Origin: Dehalococcoides mccartyi
GTDB taxonomy: Bacteria > Chloroflexota > Dehalococcoidia > Dehalococcoidales > Dehalococcoidaceae
Reading direction: 5' to 3'
Length of the DNA stretch: 64,000 bases
NCBI RefSeq assembly: GCF_001889305.1
Contig: NZ_CP013074.1
Span: 310,001-374,000, forward strand
Part shown: in pieces, positions 9,952 through 64,000 of the stretch
How the letters are laid out: the number at the start of each line of letters is the position of its first letter
Position numbering within the stretch: the first letter of the stretch is position 1
Made by a program: the position numbers and the translations under genes
Notes under the pieces: model-generated
Told to the model about the DNA's origin: nothing
The model's database searches: none
What the model saw: only the letters and a program-made list of their open reading frames with translations

Positions 9952-11232
9952 TCAGGCGGTGGGGTCTATTACCCGTCCGGTAAAGAGGGTAGTGCCGGTA
10001 GCCATATCTACTATACAGAAGATAAAAGCCCGGTCAATAGACAGGGTAACAAGCTCGGTCGGGGCGGAAGTCAGGTTCATGCTTACGGCTGTTGCCGCGG
10101 CCGCTTCAGTGCCGTCTTCGCTTACAGATATAAATGACTTGTGGAATACATCACCTATCATAAGGTTATATCCGCCGTCCATCTTGGAGAAATCTGCCTG
10201 GCTGCCAAAGGCAGTGGGCATACCCAGGGAAGACAAAGCGTCTTTAAGGGTAAACTTTGATTCAAAGCTGAACTTGGGCAGGGACAGGTTTATCTGGTTG
10301 GACTGGATAGAAGAAAGTATCTTTGCCAGCATCTGTCCGGAAAGGGCATCTTCCACCTGGGCAAATTTGCCTTCATCCGGCAGGATAATTACCATTGAGA
10401 GCCCGTTTCCGGCATAAGCCAGCTCTACAGCCTGAAAATCATCTCCGCTGTAATAGCCGTGGTTTTCAATCTGGCGCAGCATCTGCACATTTACGCTGGT
10501 ACCGTTTTGCAGGTAGAAAAGGCCGCTTTGAGTATTTTCTTCATCAAAGGGTGCTGCCCAGGCGGCATTAAAGTAGATAGCATTGGTCAGCACCAGACGG
10601 GTGGTTGCATCTATGCCATCAGCCGGGATAAGGTCTTTGATTTTGTCTTTGGTTGCGTCTGATACCCAGTCATTTATGACCTTGCGGGCTTCTTCGGAAT
10701 TAGCGGCAAAGTCCAGCACCCTAAGACCTGCCCCGTAATTCTGGGCCAGTGTATCCAGAAAATCTGACAGGAAGGTGTAGTCTTTCTGCCCCCAGATGGC
10801 ATTTACCAGCTTGAGTTCAAAAGTGCCTTCATCTGCTTCCTTGGCCTGAGCCTCTCTTTTATTCAGTTCCTGGTCAATAAAGTTAAAAAAGGCATGCAAA
10901 TCAGCATCCGGCAGCAGGTAATTAAGGGTGTTTTGCATCTCGGTTTTGGTGGCGGTATCTGCCCCGGCATAGGTCATGGCCAGAGCAATGGAAATGCTGA
11001 ACGGGGAGTAAAAGAAGTTGCCTTCCACGGTGCCTTTCAGGTAGCGGTACAGTTTAAAGGCTAAATCATTATTGGCTTGGACTTGGGTGTTTAAACTTTG
11101 CTGGCTGACATTCGGACTTAAGATCCGGTCTTTGTCAGATTTCAGTTCTTCAGCCGAAACACCGCCCGCACAGGCGGTAAAGGTGAATAAACTGACTACG
11201 GCCAGCAGCGAAAGCGCAAGTTTGGTTTTCAT
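9952..11232 (-). CDS. Serpin-family protease inhibitor lipoprotein
   Basis: 426 aa. A signal peptide with a lipobox (LFTFTAC, then AGG) is followed by a full serpin fold: NFFYSPFSISIALAMTYAGA, the breach and shutter motifs, and a reactive-loop hinge SEDGTEAAAATAV. The alanine-rich hinge is that of inhibitory serpins, which trap serine or cysteine proteases by loop insertion. By counting from the hinge, P1 falls near the threonine in MNLTSAP; that is an inference. The ATG at 11232 was preferred over 11259 because AAGGAG lies about 9 bases upstream and it starts the signal peptide. The protein is expected on the outer face of the membrane. Confidence 0.9.
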   Translation of the reverse strand: MKTKLALSLLAVVSLFTFTACAGGVSAEELKSDKDRILSPNVSQQSLNTQVQANNDLAFKLYRYLKGTVEGNFFYSPFSISIALAMTYAGADTATKTEMQNTLNYLLPDADLHAFFNFIDQELNKREAQAKEADEGTFELKLVNAIWGQKDYTFLSDFLDTLAQNYGAGLRVLDFAANSEEARKVINDWVSDATKDKIKDLIPADGIDATTRLVLTNAIYFNAAWAAPFDEENTQSGLFYLQNGTSVNVQMLRQIENHGYYSGDDFQAVELAYAGNGLSMVIILPDEGKFAQVEDALSGQMLAKILSSIQSNQINLSLPKFSFESKFTLKDALSSLGMPTAFGSQADFSKMDGGYNLMIGDVFHKSFISVSEDGTEAAAATAVSMNLTSAPTELVTLSIDRAFIFCIVDMATGTTLFTGRVIDPTA

Positions 11233-17488: not shown

Positions 17489-17820
17489 GTTTTTCGCCTT
17501 TATATTTTTATTGTAAACATTATAAACTCGGCGATATGTATTAACAAGTACACAAAAGATAATAAAACGGCAAAATATTTGGTTTGTGCCAGCAGGTATT
17601 CTGTTTGAATTTGCCCTGAAGATTCTGCTTATGCAGTTAACTGCTTTTATACCTAAGCTGTACTATACCAACCCGGGTATTATAAGTGTTTATGGTATCC
17701 GGTTAAATCATTAACAAGGGCTATGGGCAAAGATTTGGCAGGATATAACAGTGATAAAGTATAGTAATTAAAATATAGTATTAGTTATATTGACTTTGCA
17801 TCTATTACAGGCCAATAATG
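17489..17820. other. Gene-free AT-rich stretch
   Basis: About 330 bases between the divergent TM2 gene and the structured leader. No coding frame or repeat is convincing. It probably holds promoters for both sides; TTGACT at 17790-17795 is a possible -35 for the rightward leader, without a clear -10. Confidence 0.4.
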
Positions 17821-17902
17821 GTAGTGGAGTAAGCAAAATTAAGGGAAGCGTTGAGCCGCTACCCATATTTGGTTCACTCGGATAGCGGGGAGCTAATAGT
17901 GA
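17821..17902 (+). ncRNA. Candidate structured 5' leader (unassigned riboswitch-like element)
   Basis: CCGCTA (about 17857-17862) pairs with TAGCGG (17883-17888) around a loop containing a smaller ACC/GGT pairing, and the flanking AGC and GCT extend the stem past a bulge. It is followed at once by an intrinsic terminator and then by ribosome sites of a secreted-protein gene, the usual riboswitch layout. The segment GGATAGCGGGG recalls the 3' half of c-di-GMP-I (GEMM) aptamers, but the conserved 5' core is not seen, so no class is claimed. Confidence 0.35.
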
Positions 17903-17934
17903 AACCGGCCCTTTAGGGGTCGGTTTTATTTTTT
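17903..17934 (+). terminator. Intrinsic terminator upstream of the secreted repeat protein
   Basis: AACCGGCCC, loop TTTA, GGGGTCGGTT, then TTATTTTTT. It lies 90 bases before the gene at 18026 and right after the candidate leader structure, so it could be a regulated (attenuation) terminator. No upstream coding gene on this strand needs it. Confidence 0.75.
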
Positions 17935-17969
17935 GGGAATTTTGCGGATTCCAAAAGGAGGTGTAGTGG

Positions 17970-18008
17970 ATGAGTGAGGTTGCAGGGAGTATCTGGACAG
18001 CAATTTAA
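17970..18008 (+). CDS. Possible 12-aa leader peptide
   Basis: ATG at 17970 with AAGGAGG about 9 bases upstream reads MSEVAGSIWTAI and stops at TAA 18006-18008. The next ribosome site (AAAGGAGGG) directly follows the stop and serves the gene at 18026. Coupled translation is plausible; the frame is too short to exclude chance. Confidence 0.3.
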   Translation: MSEVAGSIWTAI

Positions 18009-18025
18009 AGGAGGGAGAGCATATT

Positions 18026-19987
18026 ATGAGAAGAGCACTATCGATATTGCTTTCACTTTCAATTCTGGTAAGCTTGGGGTTGTTTTCCGCTGTACCCGTC
18101 AGTGCGGCAATAGTGAATGTCTCTATAAGTAGCGGCACTTCAACTGAAATAGTAGGCGTATACAATAAAGCCGGAGGGGGATCGGTATACGTTGACCTAA
18201 GCACTTCACCTCTCAGTGCTGTGCTTGCTCAGGAACCTAAACCATATCCTACCGGCTATGTGACCGAACCGCCTGATATTTTGGGTTCAGTATGGGATAC
18301 CGGGACCGGCCTGTATTTTCAATCTACCAATCCCGGGGCTGACTGGATATGGGAAACCCAGAGAGCTGAAGGCCCAAGCAGTTATGATGTCAGCAACCCT
18401 CTGTATGATGCCGCCGCTTATACCAATGGACGGGTAGTGGTATTTGAGCAGCACTTTACCCTTGACGGCACACCCCAGGCAGGTACTTTGCATATAGCGG
18501 CAGACAACTGCTGGGAAGTATTTATTAACGGCGTTTTTCTGGCACGCTCGTCTACTGCCAAAGTAGCTGGATGGGAGCTGACTAACCTGCATGAATCCTA
18601 TGTGGCTACAACCGGGTGGCAGGCGGTAGGGCATATTGCGGTGCCGGATACCATGCTGGTAACTGGTGAAAATACCATTACAATTCTGGCGGCAAATGAA
18701 TATTTCTGGTCAGACGACGGCAACAGCCCGTCTCCTGCCCTCAGACTTAGCCCATATTATCAATATAATCCGGGAGCATTAATCTTTAAACTAGATGTGG
18801 GCTATGAAGAATTTGTAGCCGACCCGGGTATCCAGGTAGAGAAAGCGGGTTTACCCGTTTCCGCTACTGAAAACACAACCATAGATTATACCTATACTGT
18901 TACCAATACCGGCAATGTGCCGCTTTCATCTGTGGCTGTAGTTGATAATCTGGTCTCTCCTGTTACCTACCAGAGCGGTGATGAAAATACTGATGGCCTG
19001 CTGGACTTGACCGAGATATGGATATTTACCGGCAGCTATCTGGTACCATGGTTTACTGCCGGGCCGGTAGATAATACCGCAACGGCTGAGGGATATTGGG
19101 ATACCACTAAAGTTACTGACGAAGATACCTTTAGTGTTCCTATACTGCATACGCCGAATATAGAGGTGGATAAGACCGGACCGGCTAATGCAGGTTATTT
19201 TGAGCAACTGGATGCCGATTATACCTATACCCTGACAAATATCGGCAACTGTTCGCTGGATGTTGATCTGACCGATGACCAAATTGCCGGGTTGTTATTT
19301 ACCGGCGGTGATACTAACGGCAACGGGTATCTGGAACCGGGTGAAATATGGACATTCATCGGTTCAGACCTGATTGTTTGTGAAGGTATTACGGAATTAT
19401 TCTTTACCAATATAGCTACTGCAATCGGTACTGATGCCACTGGTGCAACTGACAGGGATACCGATGATTGGACGGTGACTATTTTCCAGTGGCAGCCGCG
19501 TACTATCGGCTATTGGGGAAACTGGGATAACCACTGGTCAATCGGTTGTATTACGGATATTGTTAACCGAGTAAACGCGGATTCCGCCTATTTCAGCACC
19601 TTAACCGCAGAGCAGATAAATATCCTGTTATTGTCAGCTGACCAAAAAGGTAAAATGACTCAAGATAAGGCTCGCATTTTGGTGCAAAAGCAGCTTTTGG
19701 CTGCCTGGCTGAGTGTTGAGTCATACATAGGTGCTACCGATGGTGATTCAGAAACCTGCGGTACACTTGATGCGGCTATGAGGCCGGGTGCAACAGTGTA
19801 TCTGAGTAAATTTGCCGGTGCGGAGGCCCTTTTTGGGGCATCCAGTCTTACTGTAGCACAGGTACTGGCGGCAGTAGATGCTGGAATGAGCACCTGGACT
19901 CAGAATGAGCTGCTCATTGCCAAGGATGTACTGGATATGATGAACAATGCCGAGAATAACGGCTACTTCATGTTCATGGCACCCTGA
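18026..19987 (+). CDS. Large secreted protein with DUF11-like repeat domains
   Basis: 653 aa. A signal peptide ends near VPVSAA (residue 28). Residues 30-270 form a beta-rich domain of unknown type. Residues 275-375 and 380-485 are two conserved-repeat domains of the DUF11 kind (IDYTYTVTNTGNVPLSSVAVVDN and the matching YTYTLTNIGNCSLDVDL). The last 160 residues begin with RTIGYWGNWDNHW, similar to GYWKNH modules of secreted proteins. There is no C-terminal anchor, so it is exported or non-covalently attached. It is likely a surface or S-layer-associated structural protein. AAAGGAGGG precedes the ATG. Confidence 0.75.
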   Translation: MRRALSILLSLSILVSLGLFSAVPVSAAIVNVSISSGTSTEIVGVYNKAGGGSVYVDLSTSPLSAVLAQEPKPYPTGYVTEPPDILGSVWDTGTGLYFQSTNPGADWIWETQRAEGPSSYDVSNPLYDAAAYTNGRVVVFEQHFTLDGTPQAGTLHIAADNCWEVFINGVFLARSSTAKVAGWELTNLHESYVATTGWQAVGHIAVPDTMLVTGENTITILAANEYFWSDDGNSPSPALRLSPYYQYNPGALIFKLDVGYEEFVADPGIQVEKAGLPVSATENTTIDYTYTVTNTGNVPLSSVAVVDNLVSPVTYQSGDENTDGLLDLTEIWIFTGSYLVPWFTAGPVDNTATAEGYWDTTKVTDEDTFSVPILHTPNIEVDKTGPANAGYFEQLDADYTYTLTNIGNCSLDVDLTDDQIAGLLFTGGDTNGNGYLEPGEIWTFIGSDLIVCEGITELFFTNIATAIGTDATGATDRDTDDWTVTIFQWQPRTIGYWGNWDNHWSIGCITDIVNRVNADSAYFSTLTAEQINILLLSADQKGKMTQDKARILVQKQLLAAWLSVESYIGATDGDSETCGTLDAAMRPGATVYLSKFAGAEALFGASSLTVAQVLAAVDAGMSTWTQNELLIAKDVLDMMNNAENNGYFMFMAP

Positions 19988-20014
19988 CGTAAATTTGGTG
20001 GTCTGATAAAACAA

Positions 20015-20113: not shown

Positions 20114-20160
<47 letters not shown>

Positions 20161-21278: not shown

Positions 21279-22475
21279 TTATGTTCTTTGTTGAGTTGCT
21301 ATGTGTTGTTTGAATATTCGTTGCCATAGTTTTTTACTGCCTCCACGTAATTGGATTGTTAAATCAAGAATTGCTCCTACAGGGCAAGCATAAAGACACC
21401 AAAAATTGTGAATGATAGTAGCGGCTATTATCGTTACCATAACTAGCATCCACGAGAAAGCTGATCCACTAAATGGGAATAAGGTATTCCATGGCTCAAA
21501 GACAGTCACGGAAGGATTCTGAAGTAATAAAGCTAAGAAGATTGATAACCAGAGGAGCCAATACCTTAATGACCTAAGTCTTTTTGACCATTTAAGATCT
21601 GGACGGATTGAGATTTTAGTTATAAGGTGTAAACCTTCTTGGATTGCAGAGAATGGACAAAGCCAAAAGCAATAATAATTCTTACCAAACAAGATCGCTA
21701 GTATTAACACTCCAAACATCAACACATAAATCCATAAGCTACTTGTCCAATTTCCTACATTCCCTAGTAATAAAGCTGTAAAATTGGTTAGACTGAGTGG
21801 TATCACTAACCACATTCCTAATACACCTAGCCCAAATCCAAGCGTTAAGAATCGCAACCACGTGTAGTTTTTAAAGGAACGGATCGTACGTAAAAAGAAA
21901 CTGGAAACTAGACCAGTCAGTACCATTACTTCAGATATGCCAAATTTTACAGGCATTACTGGTTCCGGATAAGGATGGCCCATTTGTTGGGATAGCAAAG
22001 CTCTTCCTAGACTCACTCCCTTTGCGACCCCTTTTGAAGATATGGTAGATCCAGAAACTGCATTAATATCTTGATCAATTATAAGTGGTTCTGTGTAATT
22101 TCTGCCAAGATATTGGTCAAAGTATTTTTTTTCATATAAACTATCAAACCAGGCTGCATCTTCGTTATAATTTGGGATAGATATATTCAGGATAACTCCG
22201 TCGGTAGACCAACCAAGAACAACTGTCATTGGTCCCCCATAGCCTTGGCTTTCAGTGATTGTGATATAGCCTACAATTGCTTCATTTTGAATAGCCGCAT
22301 ACAAATGGCCTGATCCCTGAATATCATCTAAACGCTGAAAAGAAGATGCACTAGGTTGTGCTTGTTTGAGATATGGTTCTTCATTGACATCATTAGTGAC
22401 TATGCCTATTAAAGCAGCAATAATTAGACTAATAATGGCTACTAAAGGGACATATTTTATCCTAAAATTCAACAT
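21279..22475 (-). CDS. rdhC: NosR/RdhC-like membrane flavoprotein with CX3CP motifs
   Basis: 398 aa. A first TM helix (10-27) is followed by an exported FMN-binding domain (about 45-165) with the SGSTISS motif (141-147) where NosR/RnfG-type proteins attach FMN covalently. Further TM helices follow (about 183-198, 208-232, 248-265, 303-320, 340-357). Two cytoplasmic CX3CP motifs (C269/C273 and C360/C364) match the polyferredoxin-like part of NosR, RdhC and PceC. It lies downstream of rdhA and rdhB. In other dehalorespirers the homologue is implicated in maturation or electron transfer; either role is possible here. The two extra C-terminal 4Fe-4S ferredoxin modules of long NosR are absent. Confidence 0.8.
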   Translation of the reverse strand: MLNFRIKYVPLVAIISLIIAALIGIVTNDVNEEPYLKQAQPSASSFQRLDDIQGSGHLYAAIQNEAIVGYITITESQGYGGPMTVVLGWSTDGVILNISIPNYNEDAAWFDSLYEKKYFDQYLGRNYTEPLIIDQDINAVSGSTISSKGVAKGVSLGRALLSQQMGHPYPEPVMPVKFGISEVMVLTGLVSSFFLRTIRSFKNYTWLRFLTLGFGLGVLGMWLVIPLSLTNFTALLLGNVGNWTSSLWIYVLMFGVLILAILFGKNYYCFWLCPFSAIQEGLHLITKISIRPDLKWSKRLRSLRYWLLWLSIFLALLLQNPSVTVFEPWNTLFPFSGSAFSWMLVMVTIIAATIIHNFWCLYACPVGAILDLTIQLRGGSKKLWQRIFKQHIATQQRT

Positions 22476-22537: not shown

Positions 22538-22828
22538 TTACTGAGAAGTGCTGTTGCCCATTTTGTTTCGGCGCCAAACTGATAGAAATGCGATTAATAA
22601 GAATATAATTCCCAAACCACCTATAACGAGTAGTCCCATAAAGGCAGCACTGGGTAATCCTTCCCAGAGCTCACCTAACGTATGTTGGTAGGAAGCACTG
22701 ACTAAAGCTATCCCTATTCCACCAATGAGCCAATCATGCCACCTTACCGAGATATTACGCGAATTAAGCCACCAGATCAATCCTGTAAGGCCTGCTCCTA
22801 AGATAAATGCATAGATAACATCTAACAT
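22538..22828 (-). CDS. rdhB: RdhB, reductive dehalogenase membrane anchor
   Basis: 96 aa with three hydrophobic helices (about 3-20, 33-48, 62-85), the usual RdhB size and layout. The WWLNSR segment after the first helix matches the family glutamate/tryptophan-rich region only loosely. It lies 30 bases downstream of rdhA on the same strand and is expected to hold the exported catalytic subunit at the outer face of the membrane. Confidence 0.85.
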   Translation of the reverse strand: MLDVIYAFILGAGLTGLIWWLNSRNISVRWHDWLIGGIGIALVSASYQHTLGELWEGLPSAAFMGLLVIGGLGIIFLLIAFLSVWRRNKMGNSTSQ

Positions 22829-22858: not shown

Positions 22859-24421
22859 TCAAGTATATGGTTTACGGAATCTTGTCCCAATTGTAGTATC
22901 CAGCCCACCGTATGGTCTGATTTCATCCCACCATTCTTCAGGATCTTCAATATGACCATATCCGAAAATCTTTGCCATATTGAACATGAAACCATCAAGA
23001 ATAGGGGCGTTAGCCATCGCAGCTCGTGCAAAATCATGTATCCATGAAGTAGAACCTTCACCAAATGGGCAATTGGACATACAATTATCGCAACCACCAA
23101 CTGATAAACGATGTTGCATACATTGTTCAAGATGGATCATATATTTCTTGGCACCTGCGCAATTTGCTTGGTTGTGAAGTTCCCAAGTGGGTTCTTTATC
23201 CATAGACAGAGCTTGGTAAGGACAGGCTGTAGCGCATTTATTACAGGTATGACAGAAGCGGAAAATGCCTGAATCAATAGGCTTAGAAGGAGCGACTGGT
23301 AAGTCAGTGACAAATATTATGGTACTACGAATCATGGTGCCCCACTCTGGAATAATCATAGGGTTCATTCGATTAAGTTCACCCATTCCAGACCAAACAC
23401 CCCATGGTGTCACTGGCCCTAGACCTCCAGTACCACCGGCAATACATCCATATCCTAATGTTTTCATAAATTTCTGAAAACGGCGCTGGACTATAGCCAA
23501 ATTACCATAAGCTTGAGCTGTAGCAGCACGAGCTAAGAAATTACCGCGCTCCTTAATCGCAGCTGGGCCTCTCCTAGTTAGATTAGGGTCTTGTGCCACT
23601 GCGCAACATATTATGTTGGTATATTTATTTGGAATAACTTTTTTAAAATCAGTTGTATAAGGTTTATCTACATCTTCAAATTCTATATTCCGTGTTGGGC
23701 TTGCGGTACTGCCGAATAAGTATTTTGGTTCCATATACGTGCTACCAAATAACATAGCTCCACCAGGCCTGGATTGTCCAATGCGAGGATCTTTAGGATC
23801 ATCAATTACTGGTCCCTCGTAGTCACGCCCACGGAGGTAGAAATACTTTCGGAAATTAGCATCAAATATTTGACTAAAGCCTACAATATTAGCTCCGTAG
23901 AGCCTTAGTGCGGCGGTAACAATTTTACTAGCTTCTTCAGGTGTCCCCTGCCACTTACTGCACCCCAATTGTTCTGGTGCTTTTGCAAAGGGATCTTCCT
24001 TGAAGTATTCTGGGAAATCTCCAGCCCCCGAAGACCACGCGAATTTAGATCCCTCATGCAAAGCAAAACTTTTTAAATCAAGTCCAGGTTCGCTACCATT
24101 CAGCAACTCTTTTTGCATGCTTGCTTGTTTTGTTTTTAGACGATCGACTTCGCTCTGGCCAATATATTTGTCTATTGTGCCATAAATGAGACGGGTAGGC
24201 ATGTCAAAACGTTCAGTCAGGTCCCAATCAATTTCTACAGTGGGTTTGTCGGCTTCTTTAATCCACCATGGTTGTTTTACTTTCCAAGTAGAGGTGCTCA
24301 TTACCTCATCCATGTCATGGAATATTGGGGTACTGGCAGCCACGGCTCCCAGGCCTGTTCCTGCCAGGCCAATCCCCTTCATGAAATCCCGGCGAGAAAT
24401 CGTAGAATGTTGTATTCTCAT
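22859..24421 (-). CDS. rdhA: Reductive dehalogenase catalytic subunit (RdhA)
   Basis: 520 aa. A Tat signal (SRRDFMKGIGLAGTGLGA, RR at 10-11) directs folded export. The central region is the corrinoid-binding nitroreductase-like domain (TPEEASKIVTAALRLYGAN, the hallmark of RdhA). Near residue 390 is CHTCNKCATACP, and near 450 the second cluster motif GGCDNCMSNCP, giving two 4Fe-4S clusters. The halogenated substrate cannot be predicted. The ATG at 24421 with AAGGAG 7 bases upstream was preferred to 24445. Its promoter lies in the left arm of the island's inverted repeat and is shared in sequence with the YkgJ-like gene at 28401. Confidence 0.93.
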   Translation of the reverse strand: MRIQHSTISRRDFMKGIGLAGTGLGAVAASTPIFHDMDEVMSTSTWKVKQPWWIKEADKPTVEIDWDLTERFDMPTRLIYGTIDKYIGQSEVDRLKTKQASMQKELLNGSEPGLDLKSFALHEGSKFAWSSGAGDFPEYFKEDPFAKAPEQLGCSKWQGTPEEASKIVTAALRLYGANIVGFSQIFDANFRKYFYLRGRDYEGPVIDDPKDPRIGQSRPGGAMLFGSTYMEPKYLFGSTASPTRNIEFEDVDKPYTTDFKKVIPNKYTNIICCAVAQDPNLTRRGPAAIKERGNFLARAATAQAYGNLAIVQRRFQKFMKTLGYGCIAGGTGGLGPVTPWGVWSGMGELNRMNPMIIPEWGTMIRSTIIFVTDLPVAPSKPIDSGIFRFCHTCNKCATACPYQALSMDKEPTWELHNQANCAGAKKYMIHLEQCMQHRLSVGGCDNCMSNCPFGEGSTSWIHDFARAAMANAPILDGFMFNMAKIFGYGHIEDPEEWWDEIRPYGGLDTTIGTRFRKPYT

Positions 24422-24479
24422 TAATAATCTCCTTCTATTTGACATTCTGGGAATCTTATATCTGGCTTTTTAAGTGTCT

Positions 24480-24695
24480 ATCACCTCCCTTATTTTTAAA
24501 CATACCTATACCCAATTATCGGTATGACCTAACTATTGTATGCAACCATGGTTAATAAATAGTAAAATTAGTAAATAAATAGGTGTATACTAAGCATATT
24601 CTGGTAAATCTATTAGCATTTATGTGCAAAAACATAATCTAAGAAAGGTTTTTCACAGCCAGCTATAAGTTGATTGGTAAAATGTGTTGTATAAT
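24480..24695. promoter_or_regulatory. Divergent promoter region of rdhA1 and the kinase fragment (left arm)
   Basis: Rightward: TATAAT at 24690-24695, 54 bases before the kinase TTG start, with only a weak -35. Leftward (toward rdhA1): the palindrome CATACC-N14-GGTATG (24501-24526) holding extra ATACC words, a likely regulator operator. Closer to rdhA1 is a near-perfect anti-Shine-Dalgarno match (GGGAGGTGAT on the minus strand, 24480-24489) with no usable start behind it. The same elements recur in the right arm. Confidence 0.5.
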
Positions 24696-24748
24696 GCCAA
24701 ATGGTTTCAATAGGTAAACCCCGTAAATTTAGTAGTAGGGTATAACCA

Positions 24749-25122
24749 TTGAGAACCAAATTTAGATTCACGGAAGAGAGCGGTTTGAAACATTTGCGAC
24801 ATAGGACATATAATCCCGCAATATATAGAAAGAACTCTCATGCACTTTTTGCCTGCAGCCAGATTTCAGGCATTAGCCTGCACAAACAAACAGAGGAACA
24901 AAAGACCCAGAATCTGGATTGCCAGAAACTTTACAAGAAATATAAAGCTATATTTGAATGCAGTGGAGACCCCATTGTTATAGCTGAAATAAAGGGTACT
25001 GATTCTCGTGGTAAAATAAATTGTTGAGGTCAATGAAGCACCCATTAACATTTCCGATACTCCCAAAATGAACTACTTTCACATGACACTTCTTTTCTTC
25101 ACCCCGAAGAAGAAGTAAACAC
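24749..25122 (+). pseudogene. Truncated, frameshifted copy of the sensor kinase gene
   Basis: The TTG-started frame is identical to the first 88 codons of the intact kinase at 26765-28045 except one Cys for Arg. An extra A near 25015 then shifts the frame to TGA at 25025-25027. Similarity continues at DNA level to 25122 (codon 124 equivalent, mid PAS domain) and ends abruptly. The HisKA and ATPase domains are absent. A translated 92-residue peptide would contain the N-terminus and half a PAS domain only. Confidence 0.9.
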
Positions 25123-26084
25123 ATGCACTCGTATTAAGTCCAATTTAAAATACTCTGTTTTATCTATCAGGCTTGATCTAATATCAGAACATCTATTGTC
25201 AAACTAATTATGTATTACATCTAAATAATTCCTGATTTTCTATTGATGAATATCTGAAGAATCAAATATTTTTCATTGATATTAAGCCTAGCTCACTTAA
25301 TAAAGCCAACACCAGAAGTTGCACAATTGAATCATCACTAGACCAATGTTGTGTTTATTCCCTGCCACGGATAAAGAAATATTTACGTTGCATATAGTAA
25401 TCTTGATTGAAAAACCTGTATACTTCTCAGTATTTCAATCTACATATTCTAATAATAGTAATTATTACACTCTATTTATCGCATATGCGATACAATCTAT
25501 ATGCAATTAGTCTTCTTTTAACTACCGCACTAGTGAACAGAAAGTTTTAATTCTTTTACCTGCACCAAACTCAAGTAATACTGAATATAATTTCAGAATT
25601 GTGTAGATGATTTAAATGAAATTGGATGGTAACACTTAAAATGTTTTGGTCGAAACCGCTACAAAATACAGTGGTAAGCACAATTATTTAGATGGGGCGG
25701 TTTATATGTATTTCTATCCATTAGGAATATAGGAAACACGGTTTATTATTCCTTAAAACGAGTCTCATTCCATATTGTATTGAGGAAGGATAAAGAGTCA
25801 GCCGGTTTACCCCCGTTGTATTGTCAAGATTTATACGTATAAGTTATTAGATTTTTGAATGTAAACCATGTATATAACTTTGACAATCATATTTGATAAT
25901 AACAAGTGAAAATCAGCTGTAACCTGAGGATAAATTGAGTTTGAATTCATTCAAATCTAGGTTTACAGAACTTAATAAAAAGGGTGTTTATTATTAGGTC
26001 ATTTAGAACAAGCGATTATTCATACACATAAAAACATATCAATTACATCAATATATCGGTTTTTGTTTTAAATGACCATTGAAG
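25123..26084. other. 960-bp gene-free segment inside the potentially invertible region
   Basis: Very AT-rich, with stops in all frames and no coding frame above about 40 codons. No resemblance to the rest of the kinase or regulator genes was found by eye. It lies between the end of the kinase fragment and the 3' end of the response regulator. It may be decayed DNA left by the rearrangement that made the inverted repeat. Confidence 0.5.
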
Positions 26085-26756
26085 TTAAGGATTTCTTAGG
26101 AAGTATCCTAGCCCAGAACGATTTACTATTACTGATGAAATATTCGTTGTTTTTTCTATTTTGGTCCTTAGATACTGGATATGCACTTTTAATTTTTTAA
26201 TATTCTCTTCATTATCTTCTCCCCACAAACACTCTGTAAGTTGGGTATATGTGGCTGTATTGGGTGCAACCATAATAAGTTTTTCAAATATCAAACTTTC
26301 ATAAATGCTAAGATTAATCTTCTGATCTTTTATGTGGATGGTTCTCTGTGTCTTATCAAAACTTATATTTCCAAAATTGAAGTTGTCGATAGCCTTCTTA
26401 CGAACTAATGCTTTAATTCGAGCAATTAATTCCATTTTGCGGGGTGGTTTACTTATAAAATCATTCGCTCCTAATTCTAAGGCTTTCACAACATCTAATT
26501 CGTCTGTACGAGCAGTAATTACTAATATAGGGATATCTGTAAAATAACGTATATCTTTGATCACTTCGAATCCACTTATATCAGGTAAACCAATATCTAA
26601 TATAATAATCTCTGGTTGTATTTTTTCCACATTCTGAATACCCTGCTCACCGCTTTCGGCTATGGTAATTTCCGCACCAGGCCAACTAAGCTTAAAAATA
26701 GAAAAAAATACGTCAGCAATCTTAATATCATCTTCGATAATGAGGATTTTATCCAT
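26085..26756 (-). CDS. OmpR/PhoB-type response regulator
   Basis: 223 aa. Receiver domain: acidic pocket E8-D9-D10, phospho-acceptor D54 (IILDIGLPDISGF), T/S near 81 and K near 104 (ISKPPRKMEL). A C-terminal winged helix (about 130-223) ends in the RTKIE...GLGYFL signature for DNA binding. It follows its kinase by 8 bases, with AAGGAG just before the ATG. It probably controls rdhA1 or the YkgJ-like gene in response to a halogenated compound sensed by the kinase. Confidence 0.9.
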   Translation of the reverse strand: MDKILIIEDDIKIADVFFSIFKLSWPGAEITIAESGEQGIQNVEKIQPEIIILDIGLPDISGFEVIKDIRYFTDIPILVITARTDELDVVKALELGANDFISKPPRKMELIARIKALVRKKAIDNFNFGNISFDKTQRTIHIKDQKINLSIYESLIFEKLIMVAPNTATYTQLTECLWGEDNEENIKKLKVHIQYLRTKIEKTTNISSVIVNRSGLGYFLRNP

Positions 26757-26764
26757 GCTTCTCC

Positions 26765-28045
26765 TTATTGTGTGTTACAAATTGGTAGCACAATTGTAAA
26801 TTTACTGCCCCAACCTAATATACTCTCTGCTTTAATCTCGCCGTTGTGGAGTTCCACTATTTTTTTTGCCAGTGATAAACCAAGACCCAATCCATCAGAC
26901 TTGGTTAACACATATGGTTTAAATAATTTCTGAAGATCTTCATCTGAAATTCCCATGCCGTTATCCATTACATCTATGATTATCTCATTGTCATTAGTTG
27001 TACAAATGAGAATAATTTGCCCTCTTTGAGGGCTAAAAGTTATCGAATTATTAAGGAGATTTATCAGTACCTGTTTTAATCTGTAGGCATCAGCAAATAT
27101 CAGAGGTAAATCCGGACTGAAAAATAATTTTAAGGTTAAATGCTTATAATTCAAATTGGGGTAAAACAACCCAGACAATTCATTAACTAATTCATCCAGA
27201 TATATCCATGAACGCGTTATCTTTAATATACCTACTTCCCCTTTAGCCATATCATACAGTTCATTTATTCTTGCAAGTAATTCCATACTGGCAATATTAA
27301 TATTATTAGCCATCTTCTTTAGTTCGCCATCTAGATTATCTTCCAAAACCTCGCTGTTAAGCACAATAGGGGTAAGCGGCGTTTTTAATTCGTGTACCAG
27401 CGCTTTATAGAATTCAGTACGTTGCCGGATTTGGTTTTCAAGCTCTTGACGAAGATTCTGTTCTGCCAGATGAAGATTACGTGATCTTTTTTCAAAAGTT
27501 TTTCTTTCAGATATGTCTCTGATAACCGCAATAGCTATAGGTGGTTCATCAATGGCAATCAGGGTAGAGTGTATTTCTACATCTACTATACGGCCATCTT
27601 TGCATTTGTGCCTCGCCTCAAAAAAGACATGGTGATTTTTCATTAATTCCTGTCCTACCCAAGGTAACAAAGTGTTTACTTCTTCTTCGGGGTGAAGAAA
27701 AGAAGTGTCATGTGAAAGTAGTTCACTTCTGGAGTATCCGAAATGTTTAATGGCTGCTTCATTGACCTCAACAATTACTCTACCACGAGAATCAGTACCC
27801 TTTATTTCAGCTATAACAATGGGGTCTCCACTGCATTCAAATATAGCTTTATATTTCTTGTAAAGTTTCTGGCGATCCAGATTCTGGGTCTTTTGTTCCT
27901 CTGTTTGTTTGTGCAGGCTAATGCCTGAAATCTGGCTGCAGGCAAAAAGTGCATGAGAGTTCTTTCTATATATTGCGGGATTATATGTCCTATGTCGCAA
28001 ATGTTTCAAACCGCTCTCTTCCGTGAATCTAAATTTGGTTCTCAA
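26765..28045 (-). CDS. Cytoplasmic PAS-domain sensor histidine kinase
   Basis: 426 aa, no membrane segment. A short N-terminal extension, a PAS domain (about 62-185, ending AVIRDISERK), a coiled coil (188-212), a HisKA domain with phospho-acceptor H218 (ALVHELKTP), and a HATPase domain (NLLNNSITFSP, DNGMGISDEDL, GLGLGLSLAKKIVELHNGEI). It opens with TTG; no ATG exists before residue 135. The soluble PAS layout is typical of kinases beside Dehalococcoides rdh genes. Its promoter and first 124 codons lie in the right inverted-repeat arm and are duplicated at 24438-25122. Confidence 0.92.
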   Translation of the reverse strand: MRTKFRFTEESGLKHLRHRTYNPAIYRKNSHALFACSQISGISLHKQTEEQKTQNLDRQKLYKKYKAIFECSGDPIVIAEIKGTDSRGRVIVEVNEAAIKHFGYSRSELLSHDTSFLHPEEEVNTLLPWVGQELMKNHHVFFEARHKCKDGRIVDVEIHSTLIAIDEPPIAIAVIRDISERKTFEKRSRNLHLAEQNLRQELENQIRQRTEFYKALVHELKTPLTPIVLNSEVLEDNLDGELKKMANNINIASMELLARINELYDMAKGEVGILKITRSWIYLDELVNELSGLFYPNLNYKHLTLKLFFSPDLPLIFADAYRLKQVLINLLNNSITFSPQRGQIILICTTNDNEIIIDVMDNGMGISDEDLQKLFKPYVLTKSDGLGLGLSLAKKIVELHNGEIKAESILGWGSKFTIVLPICNTQ

Positions 28046-28356
28046 TGGTTATACCCTACTACTAAATTTACGGGGTTTACCTATTGAAACCATTTGGCAT
28101 TATACAACACATTTTACCAATCAACTTATAGCTGGCTGTGAAAAACCTTTCTTAGATTATGTTTTTGCACATAAATGCTAATAGATTTACCAGAATATGC
28201 TTAGTATACACCTATTTATTTACTAATTTTACTATTTATTAACCATGGTTGCATACAATAGTTAGGTCATACCGATAATTGGGTATAGGTATGTTTAAAA
28301 ATAAGGGAGGTGATAGACACTTAAAAAGCCAGATATAAGATTCCCAGAATGTCAAA
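27672..28356 (-). repeat. Right arm of 685-bp inverted repeat
   Basis: Mirror of 24438-25122. It contains kinase codons 1-124, the kinase promoter (TATAAT on the minus strand at 28099-28104) and the whole upstream region of the YkgJ-like gene up to 45 bases before its ATG. Confidence 0.93.
28099..28314. promoter_or_regulatory. Divergent promoter region of kinase and YkgJ-like gene (right arm)
   Basis: Same elements as the left arm: minus-strand TATAAT at 28099-28104 for the kinase, the palindrome CATACC (28268-28273)...GGTATG (28288-28293), and the anti-Shine-Dalgarno match GGGAGGTGAT (28305-28314). The gene at 28401 has its own ribosome site (GGAGG, about 10 bases before the ATG) outside the repeat. 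Confidence 0.5.
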
Positions 28357-28400: not shown

Positions 28401-28994
28401 ATGGATACTCTAAAACCATTCGCTCAATCATTTACGCCTACCGAGATCTCATCTTACAAGTTACTTACAGCCGATTATGATAATTATTGTCAAGATCAAA
28501 TGTCTACACACTGTATGGCTGTAAAATTCAATTTTAAAACTTGTCAGCGTTGTGGATATTGTTGCCTTTGTTATCCTTGTATTCCCAGACCTGATGAAAT
28601 TAAACCAGCCTCGCTATATTTAAAAATTACTGTTTCTGAATTGATTAACGAATTTATGGTAGTCGATACTGCTGATTGTTGTACCTTCTTTCTACGATGG
28701 GCAAAAGAGGGGCAAGAAGATATCACGGGTGCTCGCATTCCTCCGTGGAGAATATATGACCGTGGTTATTGTATTCTGTTTGATAAAGTGACACAAGGAT
28801 GTCGTATTTATCCTGTCCGCCCATTGGAAGCCAGAACTATTAAGTGTTGGGATTCCAATGCAAGAAAAGATAAAAAACTCTGGGGTATGAACGCATGGGG
28901 ACAAGGCGATATTTATAAGTTTTTACCTGATTTTAATCCCAAATATTTCAGGAAAAGTAGAGTAAATCTCAGTCTACCACATTTACGGTTGTAA
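28401..28994 (+). CDS. YkgJ-type CxxC-rich (Zn/Fe-chelating) protein
   Basis: 197 aa. A dense cysteine group C48, C51, C54, C55, C57 and C60 (TCQRCGYCCLCYPCIP), followed by later conserved cysteines (YCILFD, GCRIYPVRPLEARTIKC), matches the YkgJ/PF03692 metal- or Fe-S-binding domain. The protein is soluble and cytoplasmic. Its upstream region is the right copy of the inverted repeat, the same DNA that precedes rdhA1, so both are probably induced together. A role in Fe-S handling or RdhA maturation is an inference from this sharing. No close functional homologue is recognised. Confidence 0.7.
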   Translation: MDTLKPFAQSFTPTEISSYKLLTADYDNYCQDQMSTHCMAVKFNFKTCQRCGYCCLCYPCIPRPDEIKPASLYLKITVSELINEFMVVDTADCCTFFLRWAKEGQEDITGARIPPWRIYDRGYCILFDKVTQGCRIYPVRPLEARTIKCWDSNARKDKKLWGMNAWGQGDIYKFLPDFNPKYFRKSRVNLSLPHLRL

Positions 28995-29323: not shown

Positions 29324-30001
29324 TTATTTGGCTAGGTAATAGCCCTGACCTGGTTTATTCAAAATGTATCTTGGATTCGAGGGATCATCTTCTAATTTTA
29401 CCCTGAGATGGTATATGTGTACCTTAATAGTTTTAATCAAATCTAGGAAAACTCCATCTGCTACCGTTTCTGATATCTTCTCATATGAGACTATCCTAGG
29501 TGCAGAGATTATAAGTTCTCTTAAGATCTGAGTTTCGATAGGAGTTAATGGGATCTCTTTTCCACTTAACAAAACAATACGTTTTAATAAATTCAGGCTG
29601 AACGGTCCCCACTTTAAAAATAGTTCTTTGTCCTCACCCACAGATCTTCTTAATAAGGATCTTATGCGTGCAGTTAATTCAAGTTGACGGAACGGTTTTG
29701 TAACATATTCATTTGCCCCTAGCTCTAGTGCTTTAACGATGTTAGATTCCTCTGCTTTTATAGTCAAGACAATAATAGGTACTTCTGAGAATAATCTAAT
29801 TAAACGGATTATTTCAAACCCATCTAGATCTGGCAATCCAAGGTCCAATACTATGAGATCTGGTGTCTTTTCCTCTAATATGTCTAATCCCTCTGAGCCA
29901 TATGGAGTGTTTAGAATTTGGGCTTCGGGCAAACCTATTTGTAGAGCAAAACGTATTGCATCGGTCACCATCTGGTCATCTTCTATAACTAATATCCTCA
30001 T
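29324..30001 (-). CDS. OmpR/PhoB-type response regulator
   Basis: 225 aa. Receiver: E7-D8-D9, phospho-acceptor D53 (VLDLGLPDLDGF), and K near 103 (TKPFRQLELTARIRSLLRR). A winged-helix C-terminus ends RYILNKPGQGYYLAK. Its ATG overlaps the kinase stop by 4 bases (ATGA), so the pair is translationally coupled. It is clearly paralogous to the regulator at 26085 but well diverged. The pair faces away from rdhA2, the usual arrangement for regulation of that operon. Confidence 0.9.
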   Translation of the reverse strand: MRILVIEDDQMVTDAIRFALQIGLPEAQILNTPYGSEGLDILEEKTPDLIVLDLGLPDLDGFEIIRLIRLFSEVPIIVLTIKAEESNIVKALELGANEYVTKPFRQLELTARIRSLLRRSVGEDKELFLKWGPFSLNLLKRIVLLSGKEIPLTPIETQILRELIISAPRIVSYEKISETVADGVFLDLIKTIKVHIYHLRVKLEDDPSNPRYILNKPGQGYYLAK

Positions 30002-31200
30002 ATGCGTGTGAGAGATAAAGGTAAGAATAATGTAAATTTGCTACCTACGCCAGGTTTACTTTCGACTGTGATTTCACCATGGTGCAGATTAATAATCATT
30101 TTTGATAATGCGAGGCCAACTCCCAGACCTGTTCTCCCATGCTTATCGTGAGAGGCATACAGTTTAAAGAGATCTTGTAATTCTTCCTGACTCATTCCTA
30201 GTCCATTATCTTCAACAGAGATAAAGATAATTTGGTCTTGGTCTTTTTGTTGGTAAATCCGTAATTCTATCCGACCTCTGACCGGTGTGTATTTTGCAGC
30301 ATTGTTTAGGAGGTTTATGATTACCTGCTTTATACGTTCTCTGTCTACATATACATCGGGCAAATTATTGGGGCAATCCACTGTAAAGGATTGTGAGTTA
30401 GTAACAAAAAGCTGAGACGTAAGTTTGGTTATCTCTTTGATAAGTAATTTTACATTGACTGATGAATATTCCAGTTTTAATATCCCGATCTCTCCTTTGG
30501 CAATATCCAGCAATTCATCAATTCTTCTATCTAGGTCATAGGTTCCTTTAAGTAATGATGAAGCACAAACGGATAATTTCCTATCCATAAAGTTTTGGGA
30601 ACAAAATACTTCAGCAGTCGATATCATCAGCGTTATCGGGTTTTTTAATTCGTGAACTAAAAAACGGGTAAACTTAATCCTCTGCTCAATCTCAAATTCC
30701 AATCTTTCCCTTAGGCACTTTTCCCTGCTATAAGATTCAACTAAAAGCTGCTCGTTTCGTTTCCTATCAGTAATGTCTCGTATGACCGCTATAACATAAT
30801 TTTCGCCACATACTCTAATGAGCTGACTATTTGTTTCAACAAGAATGAGGGTTCCCTTTTTAGTCGTAATAGATAGCTCACGAGTTATTTTTTGTCCATT
30901 AGTCTCTAAAGATTCAAGTATTTCCCTAACCTTTGGAGTAGTCTCCGGTGTGTCTATTAAGGATGAACTTTTACCTAGTAATGATTGACGGTTATATCCC
31001 AAATGTCGACAAGTAGCCTCGTTAACTTCACTAATAATTACCGGGGCATTTATACTAGTGACCTTAAAGAGAATGACAGCATCAGTAGTCTGATTAAATA
31101 GTGTAAAATATTTTTTATATTGTTTACGTAAAAAACGGTTTTCTCCATTTAATTTAGCGATATGTTTTTTTAGTATATAGTTTTCTCCGCTAATGTCCAT
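29998..31200 (-). CDS. Cytoplasmic PAS-domain sensor histidine kinase
   Basis: 400 aa without membrane segments. A short N-terminal coiled coil (1-30), a PAS domain (about 32-148, ending AVIRDITDRK), HisKA with H183 (FLVHELKNPIT), and HATPase motifs NLLNNAAKYTP, VEDNGLGMSQEEL and GLGVGLALSKMI. It starts with ATG and is divergent from rdhA2 across a 414-base control region. Likely senses the substrate of the adjacent dehalogenase; the ligand is unknown. Confidence 0.92.
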   Translation of the reverse strand: MDISGENYILKKHIAKLNGENRFLRKQYKKYFTLFNQTTDAVILFKVTSINAPVIISEVNEATCRHLGYNRQSLLGKSSSLIDTPETTPKVREILESLETNGQKITRELSITTKKGTLILVETNSQLIRVCGENYVIAVIRDITDRKRNEQLLVESYSREKCLRERLEFEIEQRIKFTRFLVHELKNPITLMISTAEVFCSQNFMDRKLSVCASSLLKGTYDLDRRIDELLDIAKGEIGILKLEYSSVNVKLLIKEITKLTSQLFVTNSQSFTVDCPNNLPDVYVDRERIKQVIINLLNNAAKYTPVRGRIELRIYQQKDQDQIIFISVEDNGLGMSQEELQDLFKLYASHDKHGRTGLGVGLALSKMIINLHHGEITVESKPGVGSKFTLFLPLSLTRI

Positions 31201-31614: not shown

Positions 31615-33141
31615 ATGTCTGTATTTCATTCAATCGTTTCGCGACGGGATTTTATGAAAAGTTTAGGCTTTGCTGGTGCCGGACTTGGTGCACTAACTGC
31701 CTCAGCACCAATATTTCACGACTTGGATGAAGTTGAATCTTCGGCGTGGGGAAATTGGAAACGACCGTGGTGGGTCAAAGAAAGAGAATTTGGTAATCCT
31801 ACAGTAGAACTGGATTGGAAAGCTATGCAGCGATTTAATTTGTTAAATCAGCTTTGGCTACCCAATACGATTTCCAAATACCTTGGCTTAGAGAAAACTC
31901 TGGAAATCTATGCTGCGAATAGTGCGGACCTAATTAACGGTATCAAAAACAATGTGCCTGGTAAAACACTTAGGGATGTTTCACTATATACTGCAGCTTC
32001 AACGTATTTTTCCTCTCAGATGCCGGGACAAGCAATGAAATCATGGTTGGGGCCACAGAAAACTGAGGTTTATGGTATTTCTTCTACACCTGAGGAATTG
32101 GGAGTACCCAGATGGGAAGGTACTCCAGAAGAAAATTTAAAAATGCTCCGTGCTGCGATGAGATTTTTTGGAGCATCTCAAATAGGTGTTGTTGCTCTAG
32201 ATGATAATGAGCGAAAGATTATTTCTGTTCGTGACCCGGGTGATATGTTCAATTTTGATTATCTTACACAAACTCCACCTGATACCGATGCCAAATGGTT
32301 TGTGTTTGAGGATGTTGATAAAGGATACGAGGGTAGCAATAAATATGTATTGCCTAATAAACCGCTTTGGACTGTTTCTATCGCAATACAGATGTCTAAA
32401 GAGTTATTCCGTGACGGAACTGGTGCATTAAGGCAAGCAGCTAATATTAGCCGTTATCGTATTCACGCCATGCTACAATTTTTAACCCAAAATTTTTTAA
32501 GAGGAATTGGATACCAAGGATTTGGGTATCCTATTAGTGCTACAGGAGCATTACCGGCGCAAGCTTGTTCAATTCTATCAGGGCTATCGGAAATGGGGCG
32601 CAATAATAACTATTGCATTAGTCCAGAATTTGGCCCGATATGTGGTTACTTCAGTTTAATTACTGATTTGCCTTTAGCTCCAACGCCACCAATTGATTCA
32701 GGAATATTTAGGTTCTGTCATACATGTAATAAGTGCGCTGAGATATGCCCATCTCAAGCCATATCTTATGATTCTGAGCCAACATGGGAGATCAAACCAT
32801 CAGAAATTGCACCAGATGTTGAACCAATGTGGACAACTCCTGGTAAAAAGACATTCCATACTGATTCACCTAAATGTGCCACCTTTTTCCACTCAAATCA
32901 CGGCTATTGTGGCAGGTGTATGGGCAATTGTGTATTCAATACTAATACAAGTGCAATGGTGCATGACATAGTGAAAGCAACAGTAAGTTCTACCAGCTTG
33001 TTTAATGGGTTCCTTTGGAATGCTGATAAGGCATTTGGTTATGGTTTAACCCCGGATGAAGAAAAAGAAGATTGGTGGAATCATTCTCTTCCATTATACG
33101 GCCAAGATGGCACTATAGGAGCATCTAACGGAGGATACTAG
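31615..33141 (+). CDS. rdhA: Reductive dehalogenase catalytic subunit (RdhA)
   Basis: 508 aa. Tat signal SRRDFMKSLGFAGAGLGA (RR at 10-11); corrinoid-domain hallmark TPEENLKMLRAAMRFFGAS near 165-185; first cluster CHTCNKCAEICP near 365; second CGRCMGNCVFN near 430, where the usual CP is CV. The N-terminus resembles rdhA1 in length and in the APIFHDLDEV segment, but the rest is well diverged, so this is a separate orthologue group. The ATG has AAAGGAA upstream. It is followed by rdhB at 33 bases. Substrate unknown. Confidence 0.93.
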   Translation: MSVFHSIVSRRDFMKSLGFAGAGLGALTASAPIFHDLDEVESSAWGNWKRPWWVKEREFGNPTVELDWKAMQRFNLLNQLWLPNTISKYLGLEKTLEIYAANSADLINGIKNNVPGKTLRDVSLYTAASTYFSSQMPGQAMKSWLGPQKTEVYGISSTPEELGVPRWEGTPEENLKMLRAAMRFFGASQIGVVALDDNERKIISVRDPGDMFNFDYLTQTPPDTDAKWFVFEDVDKGYEGSNKYVLPNKPLWTVSIAIQMSKELFRDGTGALRQAANISRYRIHAMLQFLTQNFLRGIGYQGFGYPISATGALPAQACSILSGLSEMGRNNNYCISPEFGPICGYFSLITDLPLAPTPPIDSGIFRFCHTCNKCAEICPSQAISYDSEPTWEIKPSEIAPDVEPMWTTPGKKTFHTDSPKCATFFHSNHGYCGRCMGNCVFNTNTSAMVHDIVKATVSSTSLFNGFLWNADKAFGYGLTPDEEKEDWWNHSLPLYGQDGTIGASNGGY

Positions 33142-33942: not shown

Positions 33943-34018
<76 letters not shown>

Positions 34019-62488: not shown

Positions 62489-62695
62489 TATCTGAGTTCT
62501 TTCAAGCCTCCTTATTTGAAAATAACATACCCTCTAAACTTGGGGCAATTATACCACAGAAGCCCTCCTATTCAAATAATTTGCAAGCTGATTATATCTA
62601 TTTATTAAAACGACAAAAAGGTCTTGAAGATATTAGAACATATGTGCTAAATTTAACCACGCTAAGCGCAGATTTTGCTGAAAAGGATTGGAGAG

Positions 62696-63037
62696 ATGAC
62701 GCTATTAGACAATGATTTGAAAACGGAAGAAACGGATTTGCTGCCTGAACTTACCTCTTACCCTGACCAGGGTTGTGAGTTTTCAAAAACCTGTTTGGAC
62801 TGTCCTTTGCCGGTGTGTGTCTTTGACCAGCCGCGCGGCCGCCAGAGATGGTTGAAAAGGCAAAGGGATAAGGAAATAGTAAGCCTGTTTCAGGGCGGGC
62901 AGGACGAGAGGGAACTGGCAGACAGGTTTCGCCTTAGTATCCGTACTATCCAGAGGGTGCTTAAGAAGAGTCTGGCCGGGGTAAATATAAATAGAAAAAC
63001 GGAGGTTTTAGAAAATAGTAATGGTACAGACTTTTAA
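62696..63037 (+). CDS. Phage-associated HTH protein with cysteine cluster
   Basis: 113 aa. An N-terminal cysteine group (CEFSKTCLDCPLPVCVFD near 27-44) may hold a metal, and a C-terminal HTH (DERELADRFRLSIRTIQRVLKK near 76-97) fits DNA binding. It overlaps the start of a portal gene by 17 bases, as small-terminase or regulator genes do in prophages. ATG at 62696 follows GGAGAG; the longer frame to 62675 is less likely. Confidence 0.6.
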   Translation: MTLLDNDLKTEETDLLPELTSYPDQGCEFSKTCLDCPLPVCVFDQPRGRQRWLKRQRDKEIVSLFQGGQDERELADRFRLSIRTIQRVLKKSLAGVNINRKTEVLENSNGTDF

Positions 63038-64000
63038 CCCGAATGAACTGAAAAGCCGTGATTTGGACAGGTTAAAAAGGTATGTAAATCTGCTGGATTT
63101 TTATCAGGGTAAACAGTGGGATGGCCACCCGTCCCGAAATGAAAAGCAGCTTACCTTCAACTATGCCAGAGTGGTAGTGGACAAGCTGTGCTCATATCTG
63201 ATGAGCGGAATTAACTTTGGGGCGGAAGCTTTGAATGAAGAAGATATTGAGAAAGCGGTGACTGCCCGCTCTATGCTTAACGAAGTTTACCAGCAGAATA
63301 ATCTGGAACAGCTGGACCTTGAGACTGAGATAGACTGCGCGGTGCTGGGAGACGGCTGTTTCAAGGTTATCTGGGATGCAGCTTCGGGCAGGGTGAGGGT
63401 AAGTGCGCCTGATATACAGGGTATTTACGCCTGGTGGTCACCGGATGATATGTCCCGCATCTACCGGGTGGCTTCCCGTTATGCCTTAAACAGTGAAGAA
63501 GCGGAGGTGAGCTACGGGCTGGAGCTTCCGTCCAGACAGTCATTCCTGACAGAGGTCTGGACAGAAGAAACCTTTGAACTCTGGTAGGATGAAAAGCTGC
63601 TTGAGAGCAAACCTAATCCTTACGGCTTTATCCCGTTTGTTATTTACCCTAATCTGCGTGAACCCAAGCGTTTCTGGGGGGTGTCTGATCTGGATGAGAT
63701 TATGGAACCCCAGCGTGAGCTTAACCGCGCCTTAAGCCAGCTTTCCCGTATTCTGGAACTTTCGGGTAACCCGATTGCGGTGCTTGAAAATGTGGAACAG
63801 TCTGAGGATATTGCGGTGCGGCCGGGGGCGGTCTGGAATCTGCCCGAAGATACCCGCGCTTACCTTTTAGACCTGCTTCGAGGGCTTTACAGCTACAGTG
63901 CGGTCTCTATGGACTGTCCGGATGTATTTAGGGTGTGTTATCTGGAAAATTATACCGGAAATGTGGCAGATAAACGGGCATTTCTGAGCCATCTGGTAGC
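63021..64000 (+). pseudogene. Phage portal protein (SPP1 gp6-like), amber-interrupted and running off the window
   Basis: The frame opens like a phage portal protein: LKRYVNLLDFYQGKQWDG, ARVVVDKLCSYLMSG. It is stopped by TAG at 63585-63587 (ETFELW then stop). The same frame continues open to the window end (DEKLLESKPNPYGFIPFVIY, then LDEIMEPQRELNRALSQL) with portal-like content. From about 63890 it no longer resembles a portal. A single substitution (TGG or CAG/AAG to TAG) explains the interruption. It marks a decayed prophage that extends to the right. Confidence 0.8.

Follow-up and report, generated by a model that had tools for sequence, protein, structure and literature searches.

An inverted duplication in a tRNA-Ala-bounded rdh island of Dehalococcoides mccartyi: probably a scar of gene shuffling that left two genes behind one two-component-system promoter

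We found that a sensor kinase and its response regulator, encoded in a reductive dehalogenase (rdh) island of Dehalococcoides mccartyi, are enclosed by a 685-bp inverted repeat, whose near-identical arms each carry the beginning of the kinase gene and the intergenic region that a kinase shares with an rdhA gene. We think it rather likely that an inverted duplication, formed during rearrangement of this tRNA-Ala-bounded island, set two genes downstream of a single two-component-system promoter; the repeat, then, probably records gene shuffling and does not work as an on/off switch. This explanation is based on four observations, namely the anatomy of the repeat, a step in the identity of its arms, a comparison with the corresponding locus of a genome which we take to be D. 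mccartyi 195-like (G002; 1,469,720 bp), and the equivalence of promoters in the two possible isomers of the segment; the mechanism of the duplication we infer. The DNA analysed (the window) is a 64-kb stretch, positions 310001-374000 of a single-contig genome of 1,521,287 bp, and coordinates below are those of the window unless another genome or the whole genome is named.

A repeat scan of the window, followed by gapped alignment, placed the arms at 24438-25122 (left arm, + strand) and 27672-28356 (right arm, - strand), exactly where a previous inspection of the letters alone (the sequence-only reading) had put them. Over the outer 576 bp the arms differ by one substitution (24920/27874), and over the inner 109 bp by nine edits (seven substitutions, one insertion and one deletion), a difference in edit density with a Fisher p of 4e-7; the original count of one mismatch in the outer 577 bp and about eight in the inner 107 bp was essentially right. 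The arm junctions are single and sharp (25122/25123 and 28356/28357). Each arm combines ~125 codons from the start of a PAS histidine kinase gene with ~310 bp of kinase/rdhA intergenic DNA that includes an rdhA leader. In the right arm the codons are the 5′ end of the intact kinase gene; in the left arm they form a frameshifted and truncated kinase 5′ end (HK′), with a stub ORF of 92 aa (24749-25027, + strand). The arm sequence is present in two copies genome-wide, the only further match being 25 bp long, which is chance level, and a search with 20-bp exact seeds showed the pair of arms to be the only repeat of 60 bp or more in the window, in either direct or inverted orientation. Nor did the rdh-rich regions of this and two further Dehalococcoides genomes, ~611 kb in all, contain another near-identical short-range inverted repeat; the only other inverted pair found there, from genome G001 (1,362,151 bp, presumably D. 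mccartyi CG5-like), is 2.8 kb long, 87% identical and 42 kb apart.

The left arm stops 17 bp before the ATG of rdhA1 (22859-24421, - strand), which encodes a 520-aa reductive dehalogenase with a TAT signal, and does so directly upstream of the rdhA1 ribosome-binding site. Directly after rdhA1 comes rdhB1 (22538-22828, - strand), coding for a small membrane protein, and downstream of it a gene for a NosR/RdhC-like FMN-binding, 4Fe-4S membrane protein (21279-22475, - strand). The right arm stops 44 bp upstream of a gene for a YkgJ-type CxxCxxCC protein (28401-28994, + strand), which thus lies directly behind the rdhA-type leader of that arm. Between and on the arms, as described before, are the genes of RRB, an OmpR-type response regulator (26085-26756, - strand), and HKB, a PAS-HisKA-HATPase kinase of 426 aa with a TTG start (26765-28045, - strand). 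As assembled, it is YkgJ that diverges from intact HKB, and rdhA1 diverges from the kinase stub, so that at the HKB locus no intact kinase faces away from an rdhA gene across their shared intergenic region. That layout is found at the second kinase/rdhA locus of the window (29998-31200, - strand, and 31615-33141, + strand), for which the sequence-only reading had also reported it.

The remainder of the segment is a non-coding, AT-rich spacer (25123-26084; 29.6% GC). We could not find a relative of these 961 bp in related-genome DNA, among ORFs of the window and of related genomes, or in plasmids, nor recognise in them a decayed kinase, regulator or rdhA gene; the spacer, having no known relative, gives no help on the origin of the arrangement. 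Its RRB-proximal end, read as a leftward transcript, folds better than shuffled sequences (z = -2.3) and is possibly the terminator region of the HK-RR operon. A search of genome contigs (one genome per species) with the HKB kinase returned distant kinases only, and viral contigs matched neither the kinase nor the exact arm sequence.

The arm intergenic region shows rdhA-leader features, among them an SD-like GGGAGGTGAT located ~70 nt before the ATG; most rdhA genes in the rdh-rich regions of the three genomes have an SD-like GGAGGTGA at a distance of 65-95 nt before the ATG. In rdhA upstream regions (L051-L078, and window positions 24421 and 31615) a hairpin-like GGGAAAGACC/GGAGAGACC element often comes after the SD-like GGAGGTGA, and the real ribosome-binding site after that. 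This leader element may be the 'rdhA motif' (WRC-34-1), a weak riboswitch candidate published in 2024 (PMC11109978); Rfam at gathering thresholds gave no match in the four rdhA loci scanned. By eye, the leader of the rdhA beside the HKB orthologue in the 195-like genome (L026, ~10150-10218) additionally contains an apparent short ORF, MCNFEFITWQWVFHKFIRRRLK, which has a strong SD and a stop codon overlapping the rdhA ATG (ATGA), and which possibly encodes a translationally coupled leader peptide. We did not see this short ORF in the arms of the window.

In the 195-like genome the orthologous block has the canonical order of a two-component/rdhA module: the kinase gene, followed by the regulator gene, is divergent from rdhA, rdhB and YkgJ, the last being the third gene of the rdhAB operon. 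The kinase (67% protein identity), the regulator (78%) and YkgJ (69%) are orthologous to those of the window and stand in the same relative orientation; moreover, the stretch from RRB through HKB and the leader to YkgJ has the same orientation to the core flanks in both genomes. The window, however, lacks rdhA-rdhB between the leader and YkgJ, and has the leader and kinase stub duplicated in reverse before the unrelated rdhA1, which is only 30% identical to the rdhA beside the kinase in G002 and is not its orthologue. A search of the genomes for close relatives of rdhA1, which might have revealed its former regulator, gave nothing nearer than 38% identity (in G001), too distant to be informative. 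Each of the two arms finishes with a leader of rdhA type, as is found before most rdhA genes, which marks the junction of the arm with YkgJ as the derived one; most simply, that junction would represent the 195-type module minus its lost rdhA-rdhB. None of the relatives compared shows the arrangement that preceded the duplication, which leaves room for more than one order of events.

The segment lies within a 13.9-kb rdh island flanked by two 46-bp repeats that are 100% identical: a copy of the tRNA-Ala 3′ end at the left boundary (20115-20160), and, at the right boundary (33943-33988), the 3′ 46 bp of the tRNA-Ala (TGC) gene itself (33943-34018, - strand). Core genes at the two sides of the window match G002 in the same orientation, at 94% on the left (217-221 kb) and at 96% on the right (310-314 kb). 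The host genome is close to strain 195, and the island is in high-plasticity region 1, for which islands with boundaries of this type have been described in Dehalococcoides (PMC2764846). Among the island proteins examined we recognised no integrase or recombinase, and the PF00589 hits of the genome all fall outside the island, which is consistent with a remnant island. Fragments of tRNA-Ala also border inversions in strains VS and BAV1 (McMurdie et al. 2009, PMC2764846). Those inversions and the present locus have in common the genus, the tRNA-Ala boundary type of high-plasticity region 1 and an rdhA-rich island. The former, however, span tens of kb and have short tRNA fragments or recombinase genes at their boundaries, whereas here a 3.9-kb segment has 685-bp arms made of regulator and rdhA-intergenic DNA, with no recombinase recognised.

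Some further features of the same genome were noted. A large surface-type protein gene (17694-20002; DUF7507/DUF11, 653 aa) adjoins the tRNA-Ala fragment at its end, and, because its 90% match in G001 lies in a distant region (1227220-1229530), it has moved between high-plasticity regions. Elsewhere in the genome, positions 1459876-1466239 and 1479904-1486273 form a 6.4-kb direct duplication, 96% identical and 20 kb apart, with two rdhA genes per copy. At the right end of the window (62675-64000), ORFs of 120 and 188 aa resemble, by reading only, genes that open a prophage packaging region, of terminase small subunit or portal type.

The sequence-only reading had proposed that the segment might flip and act as a regulatory phase switch. 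Such a switch would mean reversible inversion in the population, with the orientation altering expression of rdhA1 or of the kinase. We inverted the segment in silico and simulated crossovers along the arms. Several parts of that proposal held up: the arms are long and near-identical enough for RecA, recA is present in the genome, the flip recreates the divergent kinase/rdhA layout that is canonical in the 195-like genome, and the intact kinase keeps its promoter, moving unchanged to 24749-26029. Every simulated crossover within the outer 576 bp leaves the kinase at 426 aa, with the sequence exact or with one amino acid changed, whereas those beyond ~25025 mostly cut HKB to 92 aa. With RecA present and the kinase kept whole in this way, homologous recombination between the arms is plausible, and a silent inversion possible. 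The switch itself, however, is not supported. Since the arms are symmetric, relations inside the segment (the local circuitry of HK, RR and the HK′ fragment) are identical in both isomers, and only the outside neighbours are swapped. After the flip rdhA1 keeps 498 identical upstream bp, followed by one SNP and a next difference at ~593 bp, and YkgJ keeps 526 identical upstream bp, followed by one SNP and a next difference at ~621 bp. Because both genes would have the same upstream DNA in either isomer, and the kinase its own promoter, no ON/OFF difference in expression is predicted.

Thus, inverted repeats do flank the segment, but its inversion would alter no promoter, coding sequence or gene fusion, and no dedicated invertase was recognised nearby, either among the island proteins examined or among the PF00589 matches of the genome, although RecA could still act. 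Furthermore, the side comprising RRB, HKB, the leader and YkgJ is oriented as in the 195-like genome, with no sign of alternation between lineages. We consider a phase switch very unlikely on these grounds. It is highly improbable, too, that frequent inversion in cultures sets two heritable states of dehalogenase expression through read-through, antisense or supercoiling effects that the promoters do not show; were this true, the locus would be the first phase-variable one in organohalide respiration, since we know of no other so far. Long homologous repeats likewise serve as the recombination substrate in the IS-mediated, RecA-dependent phase variation reported for Burkholderia thailandensis (PMC9946442); in contrast to that system, the isomers here have no predicted expression difference, and there is no evidence of two states.

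The uneven identity of the arms had been taken as what ongoing recombination or gene conversion would leave. It does fit conversion, but it also fits mutations clustered at a rearrangement junction, and is, therefore, no proof. The 195-like sequence assigns the derived state to the left arm at eight of the nine inner edits; at the single outer SNP the left arm has the 195-like base, and it is intact HKB that differs (R instead of C). An old duplication with a decayed stub, in which repeated RecA exchange homogenised the outer 576 bp by silent inversion and gene conversion, would explain why the outer part of the left stub, non-coding in effect like the inner part, carries only one SNP where uniform decay of a stub dead throughout would be expected. 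Exchange would stop at the inner end, where crossover or conversion breaks the kinase, in agreement with the simulated truncations. This version of the duplication scenario is a real possibility, which we hold tentatively: the inner edits adjoin the new junction, and five of six left-derived inner substitutions fall at C on the same strand (a chance of ~8e-4 for that strand, without correction and picked post hoc), which suits a one-off cluster of mutations as well. Such a cluster, left by error-prone repair no more than ~110 bp from the inner junction, would be expected if one recent event, a staggered-break inversion or a template switch, made both arms and no exchange followed. The sharp, single junctions and the near-absence of change in the outer 576 bp speak for this version, as does the clustering with its strand bias; the bias, however, is that of six substitutions noticed after the fact, and an ancestral contiguous junction was not found among the relatives compared. 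We regard a single recent event, also a version of the duplication scenario, as an equally real possibility, likewise held tentatively. That the repeat is an assembly artefact, with collapsed or mis-joined copies, is very improbable. Short-read assembly can go wrong over ~577 near-identical bases, above all in orientation, and without a read across them the drawn orientation could be arbitrary; the four distinct flanks, the indels and substitutions specific to each arm, and the single-contig genome, however, argue against an artefact.

We return, thus, to an inverted duplication that put two genes behind one promoter. The sequence-only reading had offered promoter copying as its other option, and this fits, with rdhA1 and YkgJ both standing behind the same kinase/rdhA leader; copying of a promoter or operator is likely. 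The duplicated unit would comprise the 5′ end of the kinase gene and the kinase/rdhA intergenic promoter and leader. Its right copy would retain the intact HKB-RRB operon and now lead into YkgJ, formerly the third gene of the rdhAB operon, and its left copy, with the dead kinase stub, would lead in the opposite direction into the strain-specific operon of rdhA1, rdhB1 and the NosR-like gene. Judging from its position, the arm intergenic region is a putative operator of the two-component system; phosphorylated RRB could act in trans at this same operator in both arms, so that rdhA1, YkgJ and the HK-RR operon may share one signal. Occasional RecA inversion or gene conversion between the arms would be expected in living cells, with isomers predicted to be equal in expression. 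Both arms could have arisen at once if, in a canonical starting order in which rdhA1 (followed by rdhB1) was divergent from HKB and RRB, with the spacer and YkgJ beyond, the HKB-RRB-spacer part was inverted with a 685-bp staggered break, giving the present order. A duplication with subsequent deletion of rdhA-rdhB would fit equally well, and in that case the neighbourhood of HKB and YkgJ was inherited.

The process itself is already known, and the locus is a modest but clean case of it. Views of rdh regulation would remain unchanged unless orientation-dependent expression holds. If the arms do recombine, they would provide a natural marker for measuring recombination in a genus in which genetic manipulation is difficult. 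The locus is, above all, a well-preserved example of how rdhA genes of Dehalococcoides may come under a two-component system, where the target region of the regulator, and not the enzyme gene alone, appears to have been duplicated and attached to a new gene.
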